64,000 nucleotides of DNA from Nakamurella alba. Its GTDB lineage: Bacteria; Actinomycetota; Actinomycetes; Mycobacteriales; Nakamurellaceae. Positions 7,801 to 57,113 of this stretch are shown here, in pieces. The stretch spans positions 248,001 to 312,000 of the forward strand of contig NZ_WLYK01000003.1 in NCBI RefSeq assembly GCF_009707545.1, in the 5' to 3' direction. Both the position numbers and the translations under genes were made by a program. Position 1 is the first letter of the stretch, and each line of letters begins with the position of its first letter. The notes beneath the pieces are model-generated. The model saw nothing but the letters and a program-made list of their open reading frames with translations, made no database searches and was not told the DNA's origin.

Positions 7801-9944
7801 GAGTGCACGACCAGCCGCCAGTCACCCAGCTCGTCCCGGAAACGCTCGACCAGCACGGTGTTCTCGTCCGGCAGCAGACCGGTCGCCTCGCGTTGCTCGC
7901 GCAGGTACGCCAGCAGGTTCTCGGTGGCGAAGGCGTCCAGACCTCCGGCACCGAGCCGCTCGCGCACCTCCGCATCAGCCCCGGTACCGATCTCCCGGAC
8001 GAACTCTCCGTGCGCGATCCCCAGCTCGGCGGGCCGCCCCAGGGTGTCGCCCTTCCAGAACGGCAGCCGGCCGGGAAGGCCGGGGGCCGGCAGCACCAGT
8101 ACCCGGTCGTGGGTGATCTCCACGATCTGCCAGGACGAGGACCCCAGCGCGAACACGTCGCCGACCCGGGACTCGTAGACCATCTCCTCGTCGAGCTCGC
8201 CGACCCGACGGCCGGCGCCCTCCTGGCCGGCGAGGAACACCCCGAACAGCCCGCGGTCCGGGATCGTGCCGCCGGAGGTCACCGCGAGGCGCTGCGCCCC
8301 GGGCCGACCGGTCAGCTCGCCGGTCACCCGGTCCCAGGTGAGCCGCGGGCGCAGCTCGGCGAACTCCTCGCTCGGGTAGCGACCGGACAGCATGTCCAGC
8401 ACCGATTCCAGCGCGACCCGGCCGAGCTGGGCGAACGGCGCCGACCGGCGGATCAGCTCGTGCAGCTCGTCGACGGTGATCGGGTCCATCGCGGTGATCG
8501 CCACGATCTGCTGGGCCAGTACGTCCAGCGGGTTGGACAGCACCGCGAGCGCCTCGATCCGGCCGGTCCGCATCCGATCGGCGACCACCGCGGCCGACAC
8601 CAGATCACCCCGGTACTTCGGGAACATCACGCCGTGACTCGGCGCGCCGACCTGGTGCCCGGCCCGGCCGATCCGCTGCAGCCCGCTGGACACCGACGGC
8701 GGTGCCTCGACCTGGACGACCAGGTCGACGGCGCCCATGTCGACGCCGAGCTCCAGCGACGACGTCGCCACCACGGCCGGCAGCCGGCCGGTCTTGAGTT
8801 CGTCCTCGATCAGCGCCCGCTGCTCCCGGGACACCGACCCGTGGTGCGCCCTCGCCAGCACCGCAGGGGCGCCACTGCTGGCACCGGACTGGGCCATGAT
8901 CTGCGCCGGCGATCCCAGCCCGGGCTCGTGCCAGGTCTCGTCCGGCAGCGCGGCCGCCGCCTGGGCCCGTTCGGCATGGATCTCGTTGAGCCGGGCGGTG
9001 AGTCGCTCGGCCAGCCTTCGCGAGTTGGCGAAGACGATGGTGGACCGGTGTGCCTCGATGAGGTCGACGACCTTCTCCTCGACATGCGGCCAGATGCTGG
9101 TCCGCTCCGGTTCCCCGGCGGCCGGGCCGGTCAGCTCACCGGTCGGTGCGCCCATCGCGCTCATGTCGGGGACCGGCACCACCACGTCGACGTCGATCTG
9201 CTTCGTGGACGGCGGCCGGACCAGGGTCACCGGGCGACCGCCGGTGAGGAACCGCCCGACCTCCTCCAGCGGCCGCACGGTGGCCGACAGGCCGATCCGC
9301 TGCGCCGGCCGCTCCAGCAGCTGGTCCAACCTGTCCAACGAGACCGCCAGATGGGCACCACGTTTCGTGCCGGCGACGGCGTGCACCTCGTCGACGATGA
9401 CCGTGTGCACCCCGGTCAACATCTCCCGCGCTCGCGAGGTGAGGAGCAGGAAGAGCGACTCCGGCGTGGTGATCAGGATGTCGGCACCGTCCCGGGCGAA
9501 CGACCGCCGGTCGCCGGCCGGGGTGTCCCCGGACCGCACGGCGACGCTGATCTCGCGGGTGCTCGTCCCGGAGCGGGCGCCGAGCTGCGCGATGCCCGTC
9601 AGCGGGGACCGCAGGTTCCGCTCGACGTCCACGGCCAGCGCCTTGATCGGCGACAGGTAGAGCACCGAGCACCGCTGCTGCGCGGTCTCCGGCACCGGCC
9701 GGGCGACCAGCCCGTCGATGGCCGAGAGGAACGCCGACAGCGTCTTCCCGGAACCGGTCGGGGCCACCACCAGGGTGTGCTCGCCCTTGCCGATGGCGTC
9801 CCAGGCGCCGGCCTGCGCCGGTGTCGGCGCGGCGAACGTGCTGGTGAACCAGTCGCGCACCAGCGGAGTGAACCGGTCGAGCGCGCCCAGGGTGCTGTCG
9901 CCGCTCCCCGCGGCGGTCCCCGGATCCTGCTCGTCGTCGATCAC
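4890..9944 (-). CDS. lhr: Giant ATP-dependent helicase Lhr
   Basis: Superfamily-2 helicase of 1684 residues that translocates 3'-5' on single-stranded DNA and is implicated in repair. Visible parts: Walker A APTGSGKT (residues 61-68), DEVH box (VDEVHAVAGTKRG), the SATVRPLEE motif, motif VI (QRIGRAGH), then the Lhr winged-helix and C-terminal domains. The GTG start at 9944 gives VIDDEQ... directly before the helicase domain; the open frame continues upstream but would overlap the divergent tetR gene. At 1684 residues it exceeds the usual roughly 1510-1540, partly because of an Ala/Ser/Gly-rich insertion near residues 1265-1295 encoded by a short tandem repeat. nei2 follows on the same strand. 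Confidence 0.93.
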   Translation of the reverse strand: MIDDEQDPGTAAGSGDSTLGALDRFTPLVRDWFTSTFAAPTPAQAGAWDAIGKGEHTLVVAPTGSGKTLSAFLSAIDGLVARPVPETAQQRCSVLYLSPIKALAVDVERNLRSPLTGIAQLGARSGTSTREISVAVRSGDTPAGDRRSFARDGADILITTPESLFLLLTSRAREMLTGVHTVIVDEVHAVAGTKRGAHLAVSLDRLDQLLERPAQRIGLSATVRPLEEVGRFLTGGRPVTLVRPPSTKQIDVDVVVPVPDMSAMGAPTGELTGPAAGEPERTSIWPHVEEKVVDLIEAHRSTIVFANSRRLAERLTARLNEIHAERAQAAAALPDETWHEPGLGSPAQIMAQSGASSGAPAVLARAHHGSVSREQRALIEDELKTGRLPAVVATSSLELGVDMGAVDLVVQVEAPPSVSSGLQRIGRAGHQVGAPSHGVMFPKYRGDLVSAAVVADRMRTGRIEALAVLSNPLDVLAQQIVAITAMDPITVDELHELIRRSAPFAQLGRVALESVLDMLSGRYPSEEFAELRPRLTWDRVTGELTGRPGAQRLAVTSGGTIPDRGLFGVFLAGQEGAGRRVGELDEEMVYESRVGDVFALGSSSWQIVEITHDRVLVLPAPGLPGRLPFWKGDTLGRPAELGIAHGEFVREIGTGADAEVRERLGAGGLDAFATENLLAYLREQREATGLLPDENTVLVERFRDELGDWRLVVHSPYGAAVHAPWALVAAARMREHYGVDVQAMHADDGIVLRLPDVEYEGDGPQVTEALVLDAETLEAEVTAEIGGSAVFASRFRECAGRALLLPRRQIGKRQPLWQQRQRASQLLEVASKYPSFPIVAEAVREVLSDVFDVPALGTLMRRIAARSVQLVEVTTQQPSPFARSLMFGYVAQYLYEGDSPLAERRAAALTVDPTLLAELLGSGDGLALRDLLDPAALASTESDLQRLSENRRARNLDEIADLLRILGPLTDEEIAARTVPEVDVAAAVEELVGTRRAIGVRIGGVARWADPTDAAVLRDALGTALPPGIAGAFLEAVPDPLGRLLSRFARTHGPFVPAEPATLFGLGQAVVLDGLRRLSGNGRVVEGEFRPLGGAPDPSRRSGTDGVREFVDAEVLRLLRRRSLAALRAEVEPVAPVTLARFVPAWNGIVAKGSRGSRQRGVDGVLRAVEQLAGAVLPASALESLILPARVAGYQPSLMDELTASGEVIWTGHGALAGDDGWVSLHLADTAPLTLPLPEKDAALGGPPDRARPPRRDAVAAVRASASAAPGTAASSSAASGAAASGAAASGSAAGGGAAVGDTLAGAAVGERAAGAATDEVPGGPDPAPQRIAEPATQHGVWHRRLLEVLSRGGAFFFRDLADGVARAAADEGGPDGAIDDASLAEVLWDLVFAGLVTGDTLAPLRARLAGGRTTHRAKRAAPTARRRTPSGLSMLSARTGRVGPQVRRTGPPHVAGRWSLLPTAETDPTVRAHALAEVLLDRHGVVTRGAVVAEEAPGGFAGVYRVLSAFEETGRVRRGYFVEGLGAAQFATTGAVDRLRGHGVDPDAAPDLAAIVLAAADPANPYGAALPWPAGDPALPDKHRPARRAGALVVLVDGEAVLFAERGGRTLLSFTDDPAVLGAGAAALAERVTSGAIGGLTVTRIDGAEVQGAGGPAVDALLAAGFSLTPRGLRIRPFAGGAG
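6061..6150. repeat. 15-base tandem repeat inside lhr
   Basis: On the + strand the unit GAAGCAGCAGCACCG is repeated with small changes four to six times. On the coding (minus) strand it yields alternating Ser-Gly-Ala-Ala-Ala blocks, a flexible linker between folded domains of Lhr. The unit length is a multiple of three, so copy-number changes would keep the frame. Confidence 0.8.
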
Positions 9945-10006
9945 CCGGCCATTGTCCGCGAGACCACCGACAGTGGCCGATCGGGCGGTGTGACACATCC
10001 GACTGA

Positions 10007-12430
<2,424 letters not shown>

Positions 12431-12456
12431 TCCGAAGGATCTCCGGACCTGATCAC

Positions 12457-12488
12457 CTCGGCCCCGCGACCTCGGTCGCGGGGCCGAG
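12457..12488 (+). terminator. Hairpin terminator after the efflux operon
   Basis: A perfect 14-base-pair stem, CTCGGCCCCGCGAC (12457-12470) and its complement (12475-12488), closes a CTCG tetraloop 26 bases after the MFS stop. There is no T-run, as is common for GC-rich actinobacterial terminators. Confidence 0.8.
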
Positions 12489-12545
12489 TGCTGTCAGCGA
12501 TCCTCGACGGGCCTGCCGGAGAGAGGACCACCCAGCCGGCACATC

Positions 12546-12583
12546 CGGGACCATTTCCCTCGGCCACCGACGGATTCGGTCCC
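12546..12583. repeat. Dispersed intergenic repeat, copy 2
   Basis: Second copy of the 38-base element at 4782, differing at five positions. It lies in the 345-base interval between the efflux terminator and the next tetR gene. Apart from this element and the operator at 12801, I see nothing coding in 12489-12833. Confidence 0.6.
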
Positions 12584-12800
12584 GAAGTCCACATGCCGCC
12601 CGGCCCATCCCAGATCCGTTGCCGTCAGCCTCGTTGCACGTGGCCCACCGCAACGGATCTGCTGATCGGCGCCGACCCGACCCACCCGCAGAGGTTGCTC
12701 CACCCGCCGACCGCGACCCGACGCCCGGCGGCGACCAACCGCCCCGCCCTACCGCCACACCCCCGGAACCGGACACTCAGCCGGCGGCGAAAAAGTGTTG

Positions 12801-12818
12801 TGAGTGAGTACTCACTCA
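12801..12818. promoter_or_regulatory. 18-bp palindromic TetR operator
   Basis: TGAGTGAGTACTCACTCA is a perfect 18-base palindrome ending 15 bases before the ATG of the downstream TetR gene. Sequences of this TGAGTGA/TCACTCA form are recognised by many AcrR-type repressors, so autoregulation is likely. Confidence 0.75.
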
Positions 12819-12833
12819 GCTACTCTCCCTGGC

Positions 12834-13466
12834 ATGCAGGAATCCACCGTCGCCGCGCCGAAGGGCACCGCCCGTCCGGGCGGGCGTGCGGCACCCCTAC
12901 CGGTGGAGCAGCGGCGGGCGGCGATCATCGCCGCGGCGATCCCGCTGATCACCAGGGACGGCGCCGCGGTCAGCACGAAGTCGATCGCGGAGGCGGCGGG
13001 CATCGCCGAGGGCACGCTGTTCCGCGCCTTCCAGGACAAGGACACGCTGATCCGCGCGGTCGTCGAGTCCGTGTTCGACCCCGCCCCCACCTTCGCCGCC
13101 CTCTCCGGGATCGACCGTGATGCGCCCTACCCGGACCGGATGACGGCCGTGGTGGACATCCTGCGCGAGCGGCTGGCGCAGGTCTGGACCTTGCTCGGCG
13201 CGCTGCGCATGCTCGGCCCGCCGGAGCCGCAGTCCGGCCGCCGCTGGACCCAGCCGAAGTTGTCCGACGAGTCGATGAACGCGGTGATCCGCGAGATCCT
13301 CGAGCCGCCCAGCGGTTTCCTGCGGTTCGACGCGGAGTACGTGACCCGGGTGCTGCAGATGTTCGTCTTCGCCGGCACCAACCAGCGGATCACCAACGGC
13401 CACCCGATGGAGACCGCCGACATCGTCTCGATCCTGCTCGACGGGGTCCGCGCGCACTCCCCCTGA
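12834..13466 (+). CDS. TetR/AcrR-family regulator next to the ABC exporter
   Basis: Repressor of 210 residues with an N-terminal helix-turn-helix (TKSIAEAAGIAEGTLFRAFQ, then DKDTLI). I chose ATG 12834 because the longer frame starting at GTG 12804 would begin inside the 18-base palindromic operator. It lies 400 bases upstream of the two ABC-exporter genes on the same strand, an arrangement seen for TetR-controlled multidrug ABC exporters, so it probably regulates them. The ligand domain ends in the common DIVSILLDGVR helix. Inference: represses itself and, through read-through or a second site, the exporter. Confidence 0.88.
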   Translation: MQESTVAAPKGTARPGGRAAPLPVEQRRAAIIAAAIPLITRDGAAVSTKSIAEAAGIAEGTLFRAFQDKDTLIRAVVESVFDPAPTFAALSGIDRDAPYPDRMTAVVDILRERLAQVWTLLGALRMLGPPEPQSGRRWTQPKLSDESMNAVIREILEPPSGFLRFDAEYVTRVLQMFVFAGTNQRITNGHPMETADIVSILLDGVRAHSP

Positions 13467-13866
13467 TCCGGTCCCGCCGGCCCCGCGGGCCGGGCACAAC
13501 TCCACATACGCTGCCGCCGGCAGGATTCCGACTGAGCCGCCCGGCCGATCCGGATCGCCGCTGATCGACTCTGCTGCGACAACCCGTCAACAGCCGATCC
13601 GCCGGCACCCGCCCACCGCCGATCCGGTCGGCACGCACCGCCGACGACGACGCGGCCACCCGCCACCACCGCCGCTACAACGCCGGACAGTCACCGGCTC
13701 CACCCACCGGCCCATCACCGCCGCCCACAGGCCACCACCGTCGCCGCTCCACCACCGCCCGACAGCGTCGAGGCACCGGCCGGACCACCGCAGAGCACCA
13801 CCCTTCCGCCGCCCGCAGCACAACGACCACGACCCGCCGCATTCCGCAGCAACCCCGGGGAGAACC
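13467..13866 (+). other. C-rich, G-poor leader before the ABC exporter
   Basis: No gene is supported in these 400 bases. From about 13590 to 13850 the + strand is strongly biased to C over G, with many CCACC, CCGCC and ACCACC runs and few self-complementary stretches. A transcript of such composition would be poorly structured and is the kind of sequence Rho loads on. A good Shine-Dalgarno (GGGGAG) precedes the ATG at 13867. Confidence 0.5.
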
Positions 13867-15600
13867 ATGCTCGTCCGCCTGCTCCGCACCTACCTGCGCC
13901 CCTACGCCGGCGCCCTGACCGTGGTGATCGTGCTCCAGCTGATCGGCACGATCGCCTCGCTGTACCTGCCCAGCCTCAACGCCGACATCATCGACAAGGG
14001 CGTCGCCCTCGGCGATTCCGGCTACATCGTGTCCCGCGGCGGGCTGATGCTCGCCGTCAGCCTGGTGCAGATCGTCTGCTCGATCGCCGCGGTCTGGTTC
14101 GGCGCGCGCACCGCCATGGGTTTCGGCCGCGACGTCCGGGCGGCGATCTTCCACCGCGTCGGCCGGTTCTCCGAGCGCGAGCTGAACCAGTTCGGCGCCC
14201 CGTCGCTGATCACCCGCAACACCAACGACGTGCAGCAGGTGCAGATGCTGGTGCTGATGACCTGCACCCTGCTGGTCGCGGCGCCGATCATGTGCATCGG
14301 CGGCGTCTTCATGGCGCTGAACGAGGATGCCGGTCTGTCCTGGCTGCTGCTGGTCAGCGTGCCGGTGCTGGTGATCGCGATCGGCTCCATCGTGATCCGG
14401 ATGGTGCCGCAGTTCCGGCTCATGCAGACCCGGATCGACGCGATCAACCGGGTGCTGCGGGAGCAGATCACCGGCATCCGGGTGGTCCGCGCGTTCGTCC
14501 GAGAGCCCTGGGAGACAGAGCGTTTCGCGAAGGCGAACCAGGACGTCACGCAGACCGCGCTGCGTGCCGGACGGCTGCAGGCGCTCATGTTCCCGACCGT
14601 GATGCTGGTGCTCAACGTGTCGTCGGTGGCCATCCTCTGGTTCGGCGGGCACCGGGTGGACGACGCGCAGATCGAGGTCGGATCGCTGATGGCGTTCCTG
14701 TCCTACATGATGCAGATCCTCATGTCGGTCATGATGGCGACCTTCATGGCGGTGATGGTCCCGCGCGCCGCGGTGTGCGCCGAGCGCATCGAGGAGGTGC
14801 TCGGCACCGAGAGCTCCGTCGCCCCGCCGGAGCACCCGCAGCGCCGCGCCACCACCGCGGGGGAGGTCACCTTCGACCACGTCAGCTTCGGCTACCCCGG
14901 GGCGAGCACACCGGTGCTGCAGGACATCTCGTTCACCGCCACGCCCGGCACCACCACCGCGGTGATCGGCTCCACCGGTGCCGGCAAGACCACGCTGATC
15001 TCGCTGATCCCCAGACTCTTCGACGTCACCGGCGGCGCCGTCCGGCTCGACGGGGTGGACGTCAAGGACCTGGCCCCGGACGACCTCTGGTCCTCCATCG
15101 GCCTCGTCCCGCAGCGCCCGTACCTGTTCTCCGGCACCGTCGCGAGCAACCTGCGGCACGGGAACCCGGACGCCACCGACGACGAGCTGTGGGCCGCGCT
15201 GCGCATCGCCCAGGCCGAGGATTTCATCCGCGAGATGCCCGAACAGCTCGAGACCCCGGTCGCCCAGGGCGGCACCAGCGTGTCCGGCGGGCAGCGGCAG
15301 CGGCTGGCCATCGCCCGCGCCCTGGTCCGGACGCCGTCGGTCTATCTGTTCGACGACTCCTTCTCCGCACTGGATCTCACCACCGACGCCCGACTACGGG
15401 CCGCGCTGAAACCGGTCACCCGGACCGCGACGGTGATCATCGTGGCGCAGCGGGTGTCCACCGTGCTGGACGCCGACCGGATCGTGGTGCTGGAGGACGG
15501 GATCGTCGTCGGCACCGGCACCCATGCCGAGTTGCTGGAGCACTGCCCGACCTACGTCGAGATCGTGGAATCCCAGCTGGCGGCGGAGGTGTCGGCATGA
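13867..15600 (+). CDS. ABC exporter half-transporter, degenerate-site subunit
   Basis: Fused membrane-ATPase protein of 577 residues. Six membrane helices occupy about residues 1-320; the nucleotide domain has Walker [10 protein letters not shown] (about 366-374), Q-loop VPQRPYLF, signature VSGGQRQR (about 472) and Walker [13 protein letters not shown]. The position after the Walker B Asp is Asp rather than the catalytic Glu, the hallmark of the non-hydrolysing site in heterodimeric exporters such as BmrCD or TM287/288. Its stop overlaps the start of the partner gene (ATGA), consistent with one-to-one production. Likely exports drugs or lipids; the substrate is unknown. Confidence 0.93.
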
Positions 15601-29216: not shown

Positions 29217-29293
29217 TGGTGGCCAGGGCCGGGATCGAACCGGCGACCTTTCACTTTTCAGGCGAACGCTCGTACCAACTGAGCTACCTGGCC
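29217..29293 (-). tRNA. tRNA-Phe (GAA)
   Basis: Read on the minus strand: seven-pair acceptor stem GGCCAGG/CCTGGCC, D arm with GCTCAGTTGG, anticodon loop CTGAAAA (anticodon GAA), T arm with GGTTCGATCC, discriminator A and an encoded CCA. Third gene of the Glu-Asp-Phe cluster. Confidence 0.95.
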
Positions 29294-29337
29294 TCACACA
29301 TGAGGCCGGGTCCGATTTTTCGAACCCGGCCCCTGGT

Positions 29338-29413
29338 GGCGACCCCGACGGGACTTGAACCCGCGACCTCCGCCGTGACAGGGCGGCGCGCTAACCAACT
29401 GCGCCACGGGGCC
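29338..29413 (-). tRNA. tRNA-Asp (GTC)
   Basis: Minus strand: acceptor GGCCCCG/CGGGGTC, D arm GCGCAGTTGGTTAGCGC, anticodon stem-loop CCGCC-CTGTCAC-GGCGG (anticodon GTC), T arm GGGTTCAAGTCCC, discriminator G as expected for Asp, encoded CCA. Middle gene of the cluster. Confidence 0.95.
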
Positions 29414-29445
29414 TCGTGGCTGAACAGGTCACGAAGACCTGCCCG

Positions 29446-29518
29446 TACCCCCAACGGGATTCGAACCCGTGCTACCGCCGTGAAAGGGCGGGGTCCTAGG
29501 CCGCTAGACGATGGGGGC
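29446..29518 (-). tRNA. tRNA-Glu (TTC)
   Basis: Minus strand: acceptor GCCCCCA/TGGGGGT, D arm with TCTAGCGGCCTAGGA, anticodon stem-loop CCGCC-CTTTCAC-GGCGG (anticodon TTC), T arm GGGTTCGAATCCC, discriminator A. Unlike its two neighbours, the 3' end is followed by CGG, not CCA, so CCA must be added enzymatically. First gene of the cluster. Confidence 0.95.
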
Positions 29519-29710: not shown

Positions 29711-29817
29711 GGTCATGAGTGCCAGCAGACAGCCCCGGCTTGCTGGCCGGCAACCCTCCTACCGCGGTGGGGTGCCCCGGGTGAAGACCTGGTCCGGCAC
29801 ATGTCGTGCCCGGACAA
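29711..29817 (+). ncRNA. SAM-IV riboswitch
   Basis: S-adenosylmethionine-sensing leader RNA. Recognised from the conserved core: GGTCATGAGTGCCAGC, GCCCCGGCTTGCTGGCC, GGCAACCCTCC, GCGGTGGGGTGCCCCGGGTGA, closed by the outer stem GGTC (29711-29714) / GACC (29786-29789), then the peripheral hairpin GTCCGGCAC / GTGCCCGGAC (29792-29815). This order is that of the actinobacterial SAM-IV class (Rfam RF00634 as I recall). The downstream gene is a PLP enzyme of the cysteine-desulfurase group, agreeing with sulfur-metabolism control. An anti-Shine-Dalgarno segment follows at 29825. Confidence 0.9.
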
Positions 29818-29824
29818 GCGCGGG

Positions 29825-29860
29825 CCTCCGATCGCATCCGGTGGTCCCTGACCCCGGAGG
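29825..29860 (+). promoter_or_regulatory. Shine-Dalgarno-sequestering helix
   Basis: CCTCCG (29825-29830), directly after the riboswitch, is complementary to CGGAGG (29855-29860), the ribosome-binding site six bases before the ATG at 29867. With no terminator-like T-run, this suggests control at translation initiation. Which state SAM favours is inference. Confidence 0.6.
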
Positions 29861-49805: not shown

Positions 49806-49984
49806 CGGACGGCCCCCTCGCTCTCACCGGTGTCAGATCGGTCCGGACACCGTAAGCGCGATCACGCCGACCTGCACGGCCGGCTGCGCGGTGGCGACCT
49901 CGGCCTCCGCCCGGCCATCCGCGCCCTTCCACCGCGACAACCGCGGTGGAACGGCACAGATCAGGGCCGGCCACACGACAAAGG

Positions 49985-51001
49985 TCAGGTCCGGACGACC
50001 ACCTTCCCGACATTCCGGCCCGCGAACAGGTCGACCATCGCCTGCGGCGCATGCTCCAGGCCGTCGTACACGTCGGTCCGCAGGTCCATCCGGCCCGCCC
50101 GCCACAGATCCGCGAGCTCGGAGACCGCCTCCGCGGCGCGGTCGGCGAAGGCACCGGCCCGGAATCCGCGCAGGGTGAGGTTCTTCGCGGTGGCCAGGAA
50201 GAGGTTCCGCGGCCCGGCGGCGATCCCGCCGTCGTAGCCGGAGATCGAGCCGCACAGCGCGACCCGCCCGAACGGCCGCAGATGGTCGATCGCCGCCTCC
50301 AGGTGGTCACCGCCGACACTGTCGAAGTAGACGTCGATCCCGTCGGGCGCCGCGCGGTCCAGGGCAGGCCCGACCCCGTCGCGGTGGTTGAACACCTGGT
50401 GCAGGCCCAGATCCTGCTGCAGATACTCCAGTTTCGCCGGACTCCCGGCGCTGCCAATGACCCGGCAGCCCCGGGCGAGAGCCAGCTGGGCGACCACACT
50501 GCCCACCGCGCCGGCGGCAGCGGACACCCACACCACGTCCTCGGGCCGGACCTCGCAGACGAGGAGCAACCCCGCCCAGGCCGTCAGGCCGGTCCCGCCC
50601 AGCAGGCCGACCCACACCTCCGGCGGGGCGAGCGTGGGATCCAACCGGGTCAGCCGCCCCGCGCCGCCCAGCGCCGCACCGGCGTCCACCACCGCGATCT
50701 CCCGGTAGCCACGGGCGTGCTGCACCAGATCCCCCGGCCCGAAGCCCTCGGCCCGGCTCTCCAGCACCTCCCCCACGGCCGTGCCCTCCAGACCGGCCCC
50801 GAGCGCAAGCGGCGGCAGGTAGCCGGCCGGGGTCGTCTCCCCCATCCTGATCCGGATCGCCGCGTCGACGGAGTGGTGCGAGGTCCGCACCAGCACCTGG
50901 CCGTCGCGCAGTGCGGGCACCTCGACCTCGGCCACCCGCAGGTCATCCACCTCCAGCCGTCCCTGCGGCCGACGGACGAGCTGCAGCTCCCTGGTGATCA
51001 T
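49985..51001 (-). CDS. Zinc-independent MDR oxidoreductase (quinone/prostaglandin reductase type)
   Basis: NADP-dependent medium-chain reductase of 338 residues that reduces alkenals, enones or quinones. It lacks the zinc Cys/His set of alcohol dehydrogenases; the cofactor motif is VSAAAGAVGSVVAQLALARG (about residues 150-169), then GSAGSPAKLEYLQQDLG, and IDVYFDSVGG, as in the leukotriene B4 dehydrogenase/PTGR group. ATG 51001 has GGAGG at good spacing. It is divergent from the endonuclease-like gene; TGAATTCA near 51051 is a small AT-rich palindrome in the shared promoter region. Confidence 0.9.
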   Translation of the reverse strand: MITRELQLVRRPQGRLEVDDLRVAEVEVPALRDGQVLVRTSHHSVDAAIRIRMGETTPAGYLPPLALGAGLEGTAVGEVLESRAEGFGPGDLVQHARGYREIAVVDAGAALGGAGRLTRLDPTLAPPEVWVGLLGGTGLTAWAGLLLVCEVRPEDVVWVSAAAGAVGSVVAQLALARGCRVIGSAGSPAKLEYLQQDLGLHQVFNHRDGVGPALDRAAPDGIDVYFDSVGGDHLEAAIDHLRPFGRVALCGSISGYDGGIAAGPRNLFLATAKNLTLRGFRAGAFADRAAEAVSELADLWRAGRMDLRTDVYDGLEHAPQAMVDLFAGRNVGKVVVRT

Positions 51002-51190
51002 CCGATCCCTCCTGTCCCGGCACCGGCGCCGGGTGCGCGCACCCATCTTGAAGTGAATTCAGGTTTATCACGGACCGCGCGCGATGTCAGGCCCGACCCC
51101 GACGGCACACGGTGCCCACTCGTTCGGCTGTGCCGCCGGCCGCCGTCCGGTGCCAGGCTAAAAGCCCATCCGCCCGACCCGGGAGTGGCG

Positions 51191-52312
51191 ATGATCATCG
51201 CGTCCTTCAACGTCGAGAACCTGTTCTCCCGGCCGAAGGCGATGGACGTCCCGGCCGGCGTCGGCGGGCCGATCCTGGCCGCACACGCCGAGCTGCAGAC
51301 CCTGCTCGAGGAGCCGGAGTACACGCCGACCATCAAGGAGCGGATCCTGATCCTGCTGCGCAAGCTCGGCCTGGAGTGGTCGGACACCACCGGGTTCGCC
51401 GTGCTGCGCAAGATCCGCGGACAGTTGCTGCGGCGCAGCACGAAGAGCGACACCGTCGAGGTGGTGGCCGGCGGCCGCGGCGACTGGATCGGCTGGGTCG
51501 AACTGGTGAAGGACACCATCACCGCGCAGGCGATGACGCACACCGCGATGGTGATGCGGGACATCGACGCCGACATCCTCGGCGTGGTCGAGGCGGAGAA
51601 CCGGCCCACGCTCGACATGTTCAGCGCCGCACAGCTCCTCGCCGTCGACACACAGCCGTACGAGCAGGTGATGGTGATCGACGGGAACGACACCCGGGGC
51701 ATCGACGTCGGGGTCATGGCCCGGGCGGCCTACCCGCTCACCTCCATCCGTTCGCACGTGTTCGACACCGACGCCACCGGCCCGGTCTTCTCCCGTGACT
51801 GCCCGGAGTACACGTTCGGCACCCCGGGAGGCAACGAGATCACCGTCCTGGTGAACCATTTCAAGTCGAAGGGCTACGGGTCCAGGAACGACCCGACCGG
51901 GGCGAAGCGACGCAAGCGGCAGGCCACCCGGGTCGCACAGATCTATCGACAGCTGATCGACGCCGGGAGGCGCCACGTCGTCGTGCTGGGCGATCTCAAC
52001 GACGATCCCACCAGTACCGCCCTGGAGCCACTGCTGTCCGGCACCGGACTGCGCGACATCAGCGAGCACCCCGACTTCGCCTGGGGCCCGCGGAAGGGCA
52101 CCTACGGCGGCGGGAACGAGAAGGACAAGATCGACTACCTGCTGCTCTCCCCCGACCTCTACGACACGGCCACCGGTGGGCAGGTCTTCCGCAAGGGTGT
52201 GTACCACGGGCCGCGGGTCGACGATCCGTGGGAGATGTACGAGACCCTGACCTCACCGGCCCTGGCGGCTTCCGACCACGCCGCTATCACCGCGACGCTC
52301 GACCTGGCGTGA
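51191..52312 (+). CDS. Endonuclease/exonuclease/phosphatase-fold hydrolase
   Basis: Metal-dependent phosphodiesterase-fold protein of 373 residues. Landmarks of the DNase I/EEP family: FNVENLF (Asn), DILGVVEAEN (metal Glu), VNHFKSKGYGS (catalytic His), VLGDLNDDP (Asp/Asn) and SDHAAI (final Asp-His pair). Residues about 30-110 form an extra segment with TIKERILILLRKLGLEW not typical of the core. It has no signal peptide, so it is cytoplasmic. ATG 51191. Convergent with the subtilase-VWA gene, with stops only 14 bases apart. Target could be DNA, RNA or a phospholipid. Confidence 0.88.
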   Translation: MIIASFNVENLFSRPKAMDVPAGVGGPILAAHAELQTLLEEPEYTPTIKERILILLRKLGLEWSDTTGFAVLRKIRGQLLRRSTKSDTVEVVAGGRGDWIGWVELVKDTITAQAMTHTAMVMRDIDADILGVVEAENRPTLDMFSAAQLLAVDTQPYEQVMVIDGNDTRGIDVGVMARAAYPLTSIRSHVFDTDATGPVFSRDCPEYTFGTPGGNEITVLVNHFKSKGYGSRNDPTGAKRRKRQATRVAQIYRQLIDAGRRHVVVLGDLNDDPTSTALEPLLSGTGLRDISEHPDFAWGPRKGTYGGGNEKDKIDYLLLSPDLYDTATGGQVFRKGVYHGPRVDDPWEMYETLTSPALAASDHAAITATLDLA

Positions 52313-52325
52313 GACCCGGACCTGT

Positions 52326-55300
52326 TCAGCCGCCGATGATCTCGTCGGCGGACAGGCCGACCGCGGTCAGCCGGCTGCGCACCGCGGACTCGAGTTCGGC
52401 ATCCAGCAGCAGTGCCCGCAGCGCCTCCCGCTCCCGGTGCTTCTTCGGCGTCGGCTCCTCGCCCTCGGTCGGCTCGTAGGAGTCGCCGCCGCGCCAGACC
52501 GCAGCGGTCCGCACGGCCTCCCGGGTGAACGGGGTGGACCGGAACGTCTCGCCCTCGGCATGGAACAGCACGGTCCACACCCCCTGCAGCGGAGCGGAGA
52601 TCGCCGCCTCGAACACGCCGGATGCCACCTCGGTCAGCCCCTGTTGCCAGCTGCTGCCCACCGGGTCGGTGATCGTCGCGGTCACCTTCGCCCGGCCCGC
52701 CACCGGGATCCCGTACTCGGTGAGCGCCGCGGACAGGTACAGCGTGGCGCCGGGTTCGTTGGAGTCCTGCTTGATCCCCACGTCCATCCGCAGACTGCTC
52801 GAGGCATGCACCAGCAGCACGCCACCGACGCCGCCCCGGCGGATCTGGACGAGCTCGTCCCGGGTCAGGCCCTCGTGCTGCGAGGCAACCTTCACCGCGT
52901 TCTTCGGCAGTTCGACGCGGGCCAGCCAGGTCCCGGTGTGGGCACCGGCACCGATCGGCGCCGGCAGGGTGAGCCGGTAGTAGACGACCTCGTCGCCGAG
53001 CCGGGTGTAGTTCCGGCCGGAGAGCCCGTTCACGAACGCCGGGTCGACGACGTCGCCGTCCGGGGTCACCAAGGTCAGCGACACCAACCACGGGTAGCGG
53101 GTCAGCAGCACCACGTCGAGGGTGAAGTCGGTCTCCGCCACTAGGAACGGCACGTCCACCGTCTGCCCGACGGCCACCTGCACCGGCGGGTCGACGACTA
53201 CCTCCTGGTTCTTCACGCCGGCGAGCACCTGCAGGAAGTACTTGGCCAGCCGGTAGCGGCTGTCCGGTCCGAGATCGCCGGTGAGGACGCAGTACCCGCC
53301 GGTGCCGGCGGTGACCGCGGTGAGCCCGACCGGCTGGATGTTCTCCGCCCGGCCGAGCGCGACGGCGAAGGTCCGGTCGGTGATCGACGACGAGACGTCG
53401 CGGAGGAACTTGCCCTGGTTCTCGAAGCCGTCGGTGAACACGATGGCCGACTTCGTGTCGTAGCCGTTCACCGGAGCCAGTTCACCCTGGCCGAGCGCGA
53501 GACCGTCTCCGATGGAGGTCATCCCGGCCGGGTTCGTGGCGAAGGTGTCGATCTTGTCGCGCAACGCGTCCCGGGCGATGTCGATGCCGGCGGCCGGTGC
53601 CGCCAGCGGCCCGGCCGGCGGGACCAGCACCGGCCCGGCGTCGGTGTCGAAGCCGACGATGCCGACCGCGTCGCCCTCCTGGACGTAGTCGACGAGGATG
53701 TTGGCCGAGTAGTGCAGCACCTCCATGCGAGTGTTGGACGCCACCCCGGACGGCGAGTCCATCGACCCGGAACTGTCCAGCACCAGCATGACCGCCGCCG
53801 TCACCGGTGCCACGGTGTTCGCCACGATCGGCACGGTCCACACCTGGTCCGTCTGGTCATGGCGGACCGTGATGCTCCCGGATGCCGTTGCGCCGGCGGT
53901 GGTCCCGGTGAAGGCGACCCAGATCAACGCCTCCTCCAGGCTGCTGTACTGCGCCGTGCCGGCCAGGGAGTCGGTGGCGCCGAGCGGGAGCGAGAACGGC
54001 GCGGTCGGCGCGGTCACCACCGAGACGGTCGACGGGTGCAGGCTGTGCACGTCCACCCGTACCGCCCGGAAGGTGGTCTCGCCCTCGGGGATGTCGTTGA
54101 ACTCGACGGTCTGCGTGACGAGGTCGACGGTCCACGCAGCGCGACGGACGGCGGCCCGCGCATCGATCCGCCCCGCGCCGTACCACTCGCTGGTCGCCGG
54201 CCCCAGGTACCCGGGGTCGCTGGAGATACGGCCGTCGACGTCCCGCCAGCGGCCGACCGGGTCGGTGTTCCCGGTGTCGACCTTGATCGCGGTCCGCCGC
54301 AGGATGTCGCCGACCTGCTGCCAGCTCAACTGCGGGTTGGCGGAGAGCATCAGTGCCGCAACACCTGCCGTCACCGGAGTGGCGTAGGAGGTGCCGCCGA
54401 AGTCGCTGCGCCAGGCGCGGTCCGCGAACACCACGGCGGTGCCGTTCGCGAACGCGGCCGGCAGCGCCATGTCGAGACCGATCCGGCGGTTGGCCGCGTC
54501 GACCGAGGTGATGGTCCGTCCGCGCGAGGTTGTTGCCGAGGTCGGTCCCACCAGGACGGAACCGCCGACCGCCGCGCCGGCGACGCTGTCGACGTCGATG
54601 GTGGACGCCGCGGCTCCGCTCGCCGCTCGGAGGGTGGTGGACGTGACTGCCGATCCCGGTACGGCCGTGCCGGTCGGGGTGCTCCGGTGGGTCGCGGTGA
54701 AGGCTCCCCAACTGCCGGGCGGGTTGTGGCCGGGGGCCTCGGCATCGTTGGTCAGGGCGCAGAAGTCGACGGTGGAACCCCAGTTGCTGTACCAGGTCTG
54801 GCGTTCCGTGGTCCCGTCCGGGTCGAGGCTCACCGCTGAGACTCCGTAACAGCGGTTGTACATGCTCCACGGGCGCCGGTTGGTGTCATCCAGGTCGACC
54901 GTGTCGTTGCCGGCCGAGAACATCAGCACGGTGCCGAGCCCGCTCCGGCCATCGTCGGTCACCGCGTCGAAGGTGTCCTGCATCAGGGCGGAGATCGGGG
55001 CATTCACGCTGGATCCGAAGCTGTTGGTGATCACACCGGCGCCCTGCGCCAGCTGCGCCGGGAAGCCGGCCGCGGAGCTGTCGGCGTCGAGCCCGGCCAG
55101 CCACAGGTACAGCTCGGCGAAGCGGGTCTCCGTGCCGGGGTGCCGCGTGGCCAGCAGCCGGGTGTTGCCGGCGACCCCGCAGATGCCGATCCCGTCGTCA
55201 CTCCGGCCGGTGATGGCGGACGCACAGCACATGCCGTGGTCGGGGTTGTCGCCGGAGTTCGTCGCGTTGTGGTTGTTCACCATCGACCCGAAATCGAAGA

Positions 55301-56321
55301 GCTGGACGACCTTGTCGCGGCCGTCGGACACGGTGCCGCCGATCGCCGGATGCCCCGGGTCGACCCCGTTGTCGACCACCGCGACGATCAGGTCGGGGTC
55401 GCCGAAGGTGTGCGTGGCGTCCAGGTCACGCAGCACCTGCCAGGCATCGGGGATGCCCTCGAGCAGGAAGTCCCACTGCTGCGGGAACAGGAAGTCGTTC
55501 GGCGTCACCGCATCGGGCACCACGGTGGCTGCCAGATCCGGTTCCGCATAACGGATGCCGGGTTCCGCGGCGAGTCGGTCGATCTTGCCGAGCAGGTCGT
55601 AGCCACCCCCTTCCGGGGAGCGGAACACGTAGGTGTTCCGCAGCGCGGAGAACCGCTTGACCACCTCGAAGCCGTTGCGGGCGGCCAGGTCCACCGGATC
55701 GACGTCGTCCATCAGCGAGACGTGCACGGTGCCGGTCAGGAACGCCGCCGAATCTTCGCCCAGCTGCACCAGCGCACCCACCTCCTCGACGTCGTCGCCG
55801 GAGCGTCCGCGTAGGCCGCGGACCGCATCGTCGACCAGGACGGCTCGTTGGGCGAAGACGGCCGGGGCATCGGCGGGCTGCTGTCCCTGCAGTTCGGGGA
55901 GCCGGACCACGGTGACACCGGGGTCCGCGAACCTGATGACCTCGCCGTCCGCGACGTCGGCGCCCGCCCGGCCGGGCGTCGACCTGACGCCCACCGCATC
56001 GTGCACCGGACGGAACGGCACCCGCACCCGGCCGCGGAAGTAGGTCGGCCAGCCGACCGGACCGAGGACGAACTGCTCCACACCGTCGTCCCGTTGCGGG
56101 TACTCACCGCCGGTGTCGCGCTCGTCGGTCGCCCACCCGTCGGCGATGACGCTGACCCGCGCCGGGAGCGAGGCGGGCAGGTCGAAGCTCGTGCGGCCGC
56201 GCCGGTCGGTCTCCGCGGTGATCCGCGATCGGTCCGGGTCGATGCGGGTGACCCGGGCGCCGACGACCGGCGTGCCGTCGGTCGACGTGACATGGACGGT
56301 GAGCGTGGTGGTCGTGGGCAT
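52326..56321 (-). CDS. Giant subtilase-VWA protein without signal peptide
   Basis: Protein of 1331 residues. Order: Ig-like/carboxypeptidase-regulatory domain (1-70); prodomain-like region (about 210-290); S8 peptidase with Asp317 (VAVVDNGVD), His362 (NPDHGMCC), oxyanion Asn472 (FSAGND) and Ser645 (GGTSYATP); a long insertion between Asn472 and Ser645; a beta-domain; a VWA domain with intact MIDAS (VLDSSGSMDS, Asp849); and a beta-rich C-terminus ending in a charged helix. No signal peptide or membrane anchor is visible, so a cytoplasmic metal-binding protease is implied unless another export route is used. ATG 56321 chosen; GGGAG is upstream. Partner and trigger unknown. Confidence 0.9.
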   Translation of the reverse strand: MPTTTTLTVHVTSTDGTPVVGARVTRIDPDRSRITAETDRRGRTSFDLPASLPARVSVIADGWATDERDTGGEYPQRDDGVEQFVLGPVGWPTYFRGRVRVPFRPVHDAVGVRSTPGRAGADVADGEVIRFADPGVTVVRLPELQGQQPADAPAVFAQRAVLVDDAVRGLRGRSGDDVEEVGALVQLGEDSAAFLTGTVHVSLMDDVDPVDLAARNGFEVVKRFSALRNTYVFRSPEGGGYDLLGKIDRLAAEPGIRYAEPDLAATVVPDAVTPNDFLFPQQWDFLLEGIPDAWQVLRDLDATHTFGDPDLIVAVVDNGVDPGHPAIGGTVSDGRDKVVQLFDFGSMVNNHNATNSGDNPDHGMCCASAITGRSDDGIGICGVAGNTRLLATRHPGTETRFAELYLWLAGLDADSSAAGFPAQLAQGAGVITNSFGSSVNAPISALMQDTFDAVTDDGRSGLGTVLMFSAGNDTVDLDDTNRRPWSMYNRCYGVSAVSLDPDGTTERQTWYSNWGSTVDFCALTNDAEAPGHNPPGSWGAFTATHRSTPTGTAVPGSAVTSTTLRAASGAAASTIDVDSVAGAAVGGSVLVGPTSATTSRGRTITSVDAANRRIGLDMALPAAFANGTAVVFADRAWRSDFGGTSYATPVTAGVAALMLSANPQLSWQQVGDILRRTAIKVDTGNTDPVGRWRDVDGRISSDPGYLGPATSEWYGAGRIDARAAVRRAAWTVDLVTQTVEFNDIPEGETTFRAVRVDVHSLHPSTVSVVTAPTAPFSLPLGATDSLAGTAQYSSLEEALIWVAFTGTTAGATASGSITVRHDQTDQVWTVPIVANTVAPVTAAVMLVLDSSGSMDSPSGVASNTRMEVLHYSANILVDYVQEGDAVGIVGFDTDAGPVLVPPAGPLAAPAAGIDIARDALRDKIDTFATNPAGMTSIGDGLALGQGELAPVNGYDTKSAIVFTDGFENQGKFLRDVSSSITDRTFAVALGRAENIQPVGLTAVTAGTGGYCVLTGDLGPDSRYRLAKYFLQVLAGVKNQEVVVDPPVQVAVGQTVDVPFLVAETDFTLDVVLLTRYPWLVSLTLVTPDGDVVDPAFVNGLSGRNYTRLGDEVVYYRLTLPAPIGAGAHTGTWLARVELPKNAVKVASQHEGLTRDELVQIRRGGVGGVLLVHASSSLRMDVGIKQDSNEPGATLYLSAALTEYGIPVAGRAKVTATITDPVGSSWQQGLTEVASGVFEAAISAPLQGVWTVLFHAEGETFRSTPFTREAVRTAAVWRGGDSYEPTEGEEPTPKKHREREALRALLLDAELESAVRSRLTAVGLSADEIIGG

Positions 56322-56399
56322 GGCGGCGGCTCCCGGTGGATGGGGACGTGCTGTCACCACTCACGACGGGCGGAGCCGGGCCCGGATACATGACCGGCC

Positions 56400-56522: not shown

Positions 56523-57113
56523 TCAGCCGGACGCGGCCCCGGCCAGCACGGCGGCGAAAGCCGCACCGAGAGTCGTTGCCACTGTTTCGGAATCGCCGAG
56601 GTAGCCGGCCACCATGGCGCCGTCCCGCAGCAGCATGAGCCGGCCGGCGACGGCGTCGGCATCGGCGACTCCGGCCTCGGTCGCGATGGCGGCAAAGGTC
56701 CCGAGGATCCACCGGCGGTGCCGGTCGACGACGGCCCGGACCGGACTGTCCGCATCCGGGAACTCGGCAGCAGCGTTGATGAAGGCGCAGCCGCGGAATC
56801 CCGGGCGGCAGCTCGCAGTACCGATGCCGTCGGCCAGCGCCTGGAGTGAGGCGGCCGGTTCCCCGGGGCGGCGCACGCTGCTGATCCAGGCCTGCTCGGC
56901 GGCGGACTGCGCTTCCAGGTAGGCGACCACTAGATCGGATTTGGACCGGAAGTGGCGGTAGAAGGTGACTTTCGTGATGCCGACCTTCTCGATGATCCGG
57001 TCGGCGCTGGTCGCGTGGATGCCGTGGGCGTAGAAGAGCTCGTTCGCCGCGTCCAGGATGTGCGCCCGCGTGGTCGGTCCCGACCGGGTACGGGCTGTGG
57101 TCTCGGCGGGCAT
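56523..57113 (-). CDS. TetR-family regulator divergent from a DUF308 protein
   Basis: Repressor of 196 residues with helix-turn-helix SADRIIEKVGITKVTFYRHF followed by RSKSDLVVAYL. The ligand domain has CRPGFRGCAFINAAAEFPD, a hallmark of the TetR_C_22-like group. ATG 57113 was preferred over 57149 because GGAGAAGG precedes it. It is divergent from a DUF308 membrane protein; the intergenic region has an imperfect inverted repeat overlapping the probable promoters. Likely represses itself and that gene. Confidence 0.9.
   Translation of the reverse strand: MPAETTARTRSGPTTRAHILDAANELFYAHGIHATSADRIIEKVGITKVTFYRHFRSKSDLVVAYLEAQSAAEQAWISSVRRPGEPAASLQALADGIGTASCRPGFRGCAFINAAAEFPDADSPVRAVVDRHRRWILGTFAAIATEAGVADADAVAGRLMLLRDGAMVAGYLGDSETVATTLGAAFAAVLAGAASG

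Follow-up and report, generated by a model that had tools for sequence, protein, structure and literature searches.

A leaderless subtilase of Nakamurella alba built on a VWA-containing chassis that also occurs with other enzyme heads

What is the role of a bacterial subtilase that carries a VWA domain and lacks any recognizable export signal? This question is raised by a gene of Nakamurella alba (52326-56321, minus strand) in a window of 64,000 nucleotides, which is the whole stretch of DNA analyzed here (assembly GCF_009707545.1, contig NZ_WLYK01000003.1, positions 248,001 to 312,000 of the forward strand; coordinates below are those of the window). Reading of open reading frames (ORFs) and Pfam searches identified an uninterrupted frame for a leaderless protein of 1331 residues, with a peptidase S8 head and a VWA domain. 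A sequence-only reading had described it as a subtilase fused to a VWA domain. When the same domain order was sought in other genomes, the VWA domain proved to be part of a chassis of ~550 conserved residues, common to tyrosinase, M14, M64, lysyl oxidase and LodA heads, that had been overlooked. The chassis, and not the protease, is the unusual part of the window protein. Our interpretation, to which we give about even weight, is that this protein belongs to a rare, horizontally scattered modular enzyme family whose N-terminal heads, which modify proteins or amino acids, are interchangeable.

The chassis occupies residues ~735-1331 and consists of immunoglobulin (Ig)-like, VWA, beta-sandwich and Ig domains, usually followed by a helical tail. 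In the window protein (all parts on the minus strand), alignments and a structure model place the Ig-like beta domain at residues ~735-840 (53802-54119). The VWA domain (53202-53798) was recognized by Pfam (VWA_2, residues 844-965, 1.4e-6), alignment, model and fold match. It is followed by a beta-sandwich with no significant Pfam family (residues ~1041-1160, 52842-53201; alignment and model), a filamin/MG2-like Ig domain ending in a conserved FTRE motif (residues ~1163-1275, 52497-52835; alignment and fold match) and a C-terminal helical hairpin (52329-52448; structure model and relatives' tails). The metal ion-dependent adhesion site (MIDAS) of the VWA domain is complete, and all 25 chassis sequences compared keep its residues D849, S851, S853, T935 and D964 unchanged. 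The intact metal site previously recognized from Asp849 was thus confirmed, and the metal-dependent protein contacts proposed along with it may be retained as a suggestion from these invariant residues.

The structure model of the chassis is confident (predicted local distance difference test, pLDDT, 86; predicted template modeling score, pTM, 0.82). Its VWA fold resembles many solved VWA domains with Z of about 20, including 4fx5 from Catenulispora, the inter-alpha-inhibitor heavy chain and CLCA1, and the last Ig domain resembles filamin and MG2. A PDB and BFVD search with the whole chassis gave a confident match for the VWA domain alone; since this domain dominates the search, the result does not argue for a new fold.

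Occurrence of the chassis was limited. Among 84,980 species genomes we found at least 23 strong chassis loci (E 7e-69 or better), plus weaker ones; the strong matches (E 1e-69 to 1e-131) were spread over many phyla among the matches listed. Carriers are rare and scattered across many bacterial phyla and the archaeon Haloarcula. Samples of whole genomes gave 5 carriers in 397 for the order of the window genome, 3 in 347 for the phylum of Acidobacterium, and 1 in 398 and 2 in 301 in two further samples; the sample for the window's own phylum had 3 in 396, two of them distant. The chassis gene was missing from all 16 other genomes of the window genus examined. This patchy distribution fits horizontal transfer.

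The heads carried by this chassis are diverse. A search of plasmid proteins matched residues 735-1280 to proteins of Haloarcula, Caballeronia and Microvirga that are annotated as VWA and tyrosinase (34-36% identity), and whose heads are tyrosinase, M14 carboxypeptidase and tyrosinase, respectively. The 34 proteins that we placed in a chassis tree comprise 17 with tyrosinase heads, five S8, five M14, four LodA, two M64 and one lysyl oxidase. A signal-peptide-like segment was detected in none of these 34 proteins (top hydropathy value 1.85). The occurrence of six unrelated heads on one metal-site chassis in distant phyla, none with an export signal, suggests that any protein-modifying enzyme could benefit from what the chassis provides, be it a target, a place or an exit. 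It also singles out a group of leaderless tyrosinases, lysyl oxidases and LodA enzymes by their common add-on.

More distant relatives showed further arrangements. One protein (L088) combines a trypsin-like head with a membrane segment at the C-terminus, and another VWA relative (L034) likewise ends in such a segment. In two others (L033 and L087) long N-terminal repeats stand ahead of the VWA domain in place of an enzyme; those of L087 are Ig repeats of the HYDIN/ASH type.

Test groups for the chassis tree were fixed by head before the tree was built. It rejected a single clade of S8-headed proteins (approximately unbiased test, p-AU 2.7e-75) and a single clade of M14-headed proteins (p-AU 3.7e-13), and heads have therefore been exchanged. 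In one supported group (100/97), chassis of L012, L028 and L028b carry lysyl oxidase, S8 and M14 heads, respectively. The clearest case is the Acidobacterium locus L028, with three consecutive genes: one for an S8-VWA protein (8435-11995), a small one (12076-12375) and one for an M14-VWA protein (12382-15291). The two chassis at this locus are 77% identical over 579 residues, and their heads, an endopeptidase and a carboxypeptidase, are unrelated. This tandem pair on near-identical chassis makes the idea of a targeting chassis testable, as both proteins should dock to the same partner. The converse was also observed: L028b and Caballeronia share 54% identity in their M14 heads and 44% in their chassis. 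Identity between the window chassis and those of other S8-VWA proteins is 38-42%, the window head aligns with theirs just partially and weakly, and the window protein forms a long branch in the chassis tree, with no supported close relative.

We also observed leaderless S8 peptidases that are related to the window head and have no VWA domain, in Leisingera (L077, 4721-6490) and Sphingopyxis (L079, 3860-5452). Such peptidases are a possible source of S8 heads.

Several heads are accompanied by their own leaderless partner gene. A LodB-like flavoprotein gene is located directly downstream of the LodA-VWA gene in two of the four LodA loci, and LodB is required for LodA (PMC2855505). In all five M14 loci analyzed (L007, L017, L018, L019 and L028), a small leaderless gene ends at or just before the start of the M14-VWA gene; its product has about 100-140 residues and a conserved VGxGxRF motif. 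A different small leaderless gene (66-98 residues) precedes eight tyrosinase heads (L008, L022, L024, L026, L027, L029, L006 and L020), six of these small genes being clearly alike. Neither small family had a significant match in Pfam, NCBIfam or PDB. It is plausible that each head has its own step of maturation or inhibition, by analogy with LodA, the one head for which this has been demonstrated, in the literature. The window protein instead has a pro-domain-like stretch in cis.

Two assignments of the small partners were considered and set aside: that the partner of the tyrosinase heads is a copper chaperone of the MelC1 type, and that the M14 partner is a carboxypeptidase pro-domain acting in trans. 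Each partner bears some resemblance to the protein in question; searches of Pfam, NCBIfam and PDB returned nothing significant for either. Separately, a 144-residue ORF with no Pfam match overlaps the start of an M64-VWA gene (L032, 8670-9104) and may be a separate N-terminal peptidase part.

How might such a protein work? We propose, with roughly equal chances for and against, that the chassis uses its metal site for docking and carries a latent protein-modifying enzyme to the substrate on which it acts. The window protease would be synthesized in the cytoplasm without a leader, kept latent by its pro-domain-like stretch and later activated by self-processing near residue 270. The VWA domain would then use its metal ion to dock to a protein partner or to a surface, and the head, brought close to a substrate, would cleave it there. 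Exit from the cell could occur at lysis or by an unassigned route, as reported for LodA. A broader version, that the chassis is an undescribed general-purpose platform by which leaderless protein-modifying enzymes are delivered or docked throughout bacteria and archaea, with swapped heads (proteases, copper oxidases and a quinoprotein oxidase) that are each latent until matured by a pro-domain or partner and perhaps leave the cell by an unassigned route, is offered only tentatively.

Location of the window protein is where this proposal meets its main competitor, a purely cytoplasmic regulatory or quality-control protease whose VWA domain recruits intracellular clients and which is never exported. 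The lack of signal peptides in Gram-negative, Gram-positive and archaeal hosts alike, as well as in the partner proteins, is in its favor; moreover, cytoplasmic maturation of metal enzymes is known and LodB stays intracellular (PMC2855505). However, LodA, in contrast to LodB, is reported to be secreted (PMC2855505). Lysyl oxidase, tyrosinase, M14, M64 and pro-domain-containing S8 heads are also generally regarded as typical of secreted enzymes. In addition, the tails of relatives contain two CX4C motifs in the helical hairpin; the inner Cys pair occurs in 26 and 27 of 31 tails, and the outer pair tends to co-occur or be absent together (Fisher p 6e-5, uncorrected for kinship). Judged from these sequences, coupled Cys residues suggest disulfides and hence an oxidizing place, which would be awkward for a purely cytoplasmic life. 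The window protein itself has lost all four. On balance, a wholly intracellular role appears possible but doubtful.

Several observations also weigh against docking of a latent enzyme as we propose it, among them these tail Cys residues, which fit poorly with a cytoplasmic stage. We know of no docking partner; no partner gene was found beside the S8 heads; and no neighbor is common to most loci, as only the head-specific small genes and the neighbors of close relatives recur. The model of the protease-containing half is poor (pLDDT 37.5) and too weak to use, so that the pro-domain-like stretch and the insert described below rest on sequence only.

Among known systems, the CLCA proteins offer the closest parallel. 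Bacterial proteins with the CLCA architecture (CLCA_N metalloprotease, VWA, DUF1973/beta domain and FnIII) have a patchy prokaryotic distribution, and in two of them the head was replaced by M10 or CHAP (PMC3650047, 2013). Partner binding by CLCA1 and CLCA4 depends on the MIDAS of their VWA domain, and their chain is cut by its own protease head (PMC11231702); this precedent shows that a mechanism of docking and self-cleavage is possible, not that the window protein uses it. The window protein resembles CLCAs in its order of protease head, VWA domain with MIDAS, beta domain and Ig-type domain, as well as in its patchy prokaryotic spread and head swaps. It differs in the S8 head, the extra Ig domain before VWA, the lack of a signal peptide and the filamin/MG2-like last Ig domain.

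It could be argued that the window protein is a true bacterial relative of CLCA in which a subtilase has replaced the metalloprotease head. When PDB was searched with the chassis sequence, the CLCA1 VWA domain (6pyo) ranked second (3e-10), and it also ranked high in structure (28% identity over 152 residues, Z 20.1), and M64, placed nearest to CLCA in the study that reported bacterial CLCA architecture, patchiness and head replacement (PMC3650047), is one of the chassis heads. The CLCA family model also matches the chassis VWA, although these matches do not set CLCA apart from other VWA families. However, sequence and structure matches are confined to the VWA domain, for which many other VWA folds score equally well or better, and beyond it the comparison is one of domain order only. 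Moreover, the last Ig domain is more like filamin/MG2 than FnIII, and bacterial chassis members are leaderless, whereas animal CLCAs are secreted. CLCA_N (PF08434) is not among the Pfam matches of the window protein, whose head is S8; a search for the CLCA N-domain had no match in the protein's own or control genomes and is hence uninformative. Common descent with CLCA is therefore unlikely in our judgment. Whatever its origin, the chassis family would make it possible to study in bacteria the function of VWA-beta-Ig assemblies such as CLCA.

Part of the family has been seen before. Two LodA proteins fused to a vWA domain (pfam13519) were reported in Amycolatopsis vancoresmycina and Cryptosporangium arvum (PMC4417212, 2015). 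Four LodA-headed loci (L089-L092) have the same chassis as the window protein, but that study described no chassis common to other enzymes. Our search of the open literature turned up no paper linking tyrosinase, lysyl oxidase, LodA and subtilase by way of a VWA chassis; most subscription papers were outside this search.

Could the missing leader simply reflect a misplaced start codon or a frameshift in an ordinary secreted subtilase? Pro-domain-bearing subtilases are mostly secreted, which would favor this explanation. However, the ATG at 56321 is well placed behind GGGAG (56330-56334, minus strand), its probable ribosome-binding site. The sole in-frame upstream start, a GTG at 56360, has an in-frame stop immediately upstream and would add just 13 non-hydrophobic residues (MVTARPHPPGAAA). 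With either start, the highest 11-residue hydropathy in the first 60 residues was 1.31, compared with 2.28-3.25 for six signal-peptide controls. No classical membrane anchor was found in the window protein either, its top 19-residue hydropathy (2.02) being located in the VWA core. Together with the leaderless relatives, these observations led us to reject a missed leader, to which we give almost no credence. The claim that the protein has neither signal peptide nor anchor therefore holds for both starts, and signal peptides were sought in homologs, where they might have overturned it, with the same outcome in 34 of 34 chassis proteins.

The protein begins with a putative Ig-like domain (residues 6-68, 56118-56306, minus strand; CarboxypepD_reg and Big_1, 3.5e-6, below the Pfam cut-off). 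The catalytic domain at residues 311-683 (54273-55391, minus strand) was assigned by Pfam (Peptidase_S8, 3.7e-25) and S8 alignment. As stated earlier from the sequence, the catalytic residues D317, H362 and S645 and the oxyanion N472 are intact, and they are invariant when the window protein is aligned with four other S8-headed relatives. Between these two domains, weak profile matches (Fervidolysin_NPro, E 0.057; a second, E 0.017, at 189-262) and the S8 alignment point to a pro-domain-like stretch at residues ~189-268 (55518-55757, minus strand), directly followed by a typical mature-type start, TPNDFLFPQQW. This stretch had escaped the sequence-only reading, and it is what keeps the self-cleavage proposed there a reasonable suggestion. 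In its triad, its pro-domain-like region and the presence of furin among its best PDB matches, the window protease resembles the convertase-like branch of peptidase S8; it differs in being leaderless, in its ~100-residue insert and in having a 600-residue chassis in place of the P domain.

This insert (residues ~527-636, 54414-54743, minus strand; S8 alignment and motif spacing) lies between Asn472 and Ser645. A domain inserted beside the active site had been predicted from motif spacing, and a domain-sized insert is indeed present: the Asn-Ser distance is 173 in the window protein versus 73, 89, 90 and 62 in four other S8-VWA proteins, which lack the ~100 residues (about 527-636). As judged from these alignments, it is private to the window copy and not what the family is about. 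The insert had no Pfam match, and matches to plasmid proteins were confined to the flanking GTS..ATP region.

The earlier suggestion of a partner-triggered protease acting in immunity or conflict found little support. Leaderless subtilases do occur in defense systems, and the S8-headed proteins of L010 and L028 match PADLOC subtilase and IetS models; however, these matches are explained by the common S8 fold, and the window protein matches no PADLOC model. Like IetAS-type defense subtilases, it has an S8 domain without a signal peptide, but it is not matched by IetS models, no adjacent ATPase was seen and its C-terminus is different. The sampled neighbors in the window, a TetR regulator, a membrane-protein-like ORF and metabolic genes, include no defense gene, no neighbor is conserved across loci, and four of the six heads are not generally considered typical defense effectors. 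No relative was detected in the phages or viral contigs searched, which also led us to reject a phage origin. A role in immunity is accordingly very unlikely. We also rejected the protein as cargo of a contractile injection system: Phage_sheath_1 was absent from the window genome and six of seven other host genomes, although this is a single family that older sheaths may escape.

The TetR-family protein is encoded about 200 bp upstream on the same strand (56523-57113, minus strand); its gene is not conserved beside relatives, and it is a possible regulator of the window gene. On the other side, a convergent gene (49946-52312, plus strand), whose last third encodes an endonuclease/exonuclease/phosphatase domain, ends 14 bases from the S8-VWA stop. 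Elsewhere in the window, a SAM-IV riboswitch (29711-29826, plus strand; 112.8 bits) lies beside three transfer RNA genes (29217-29518, minus strand).

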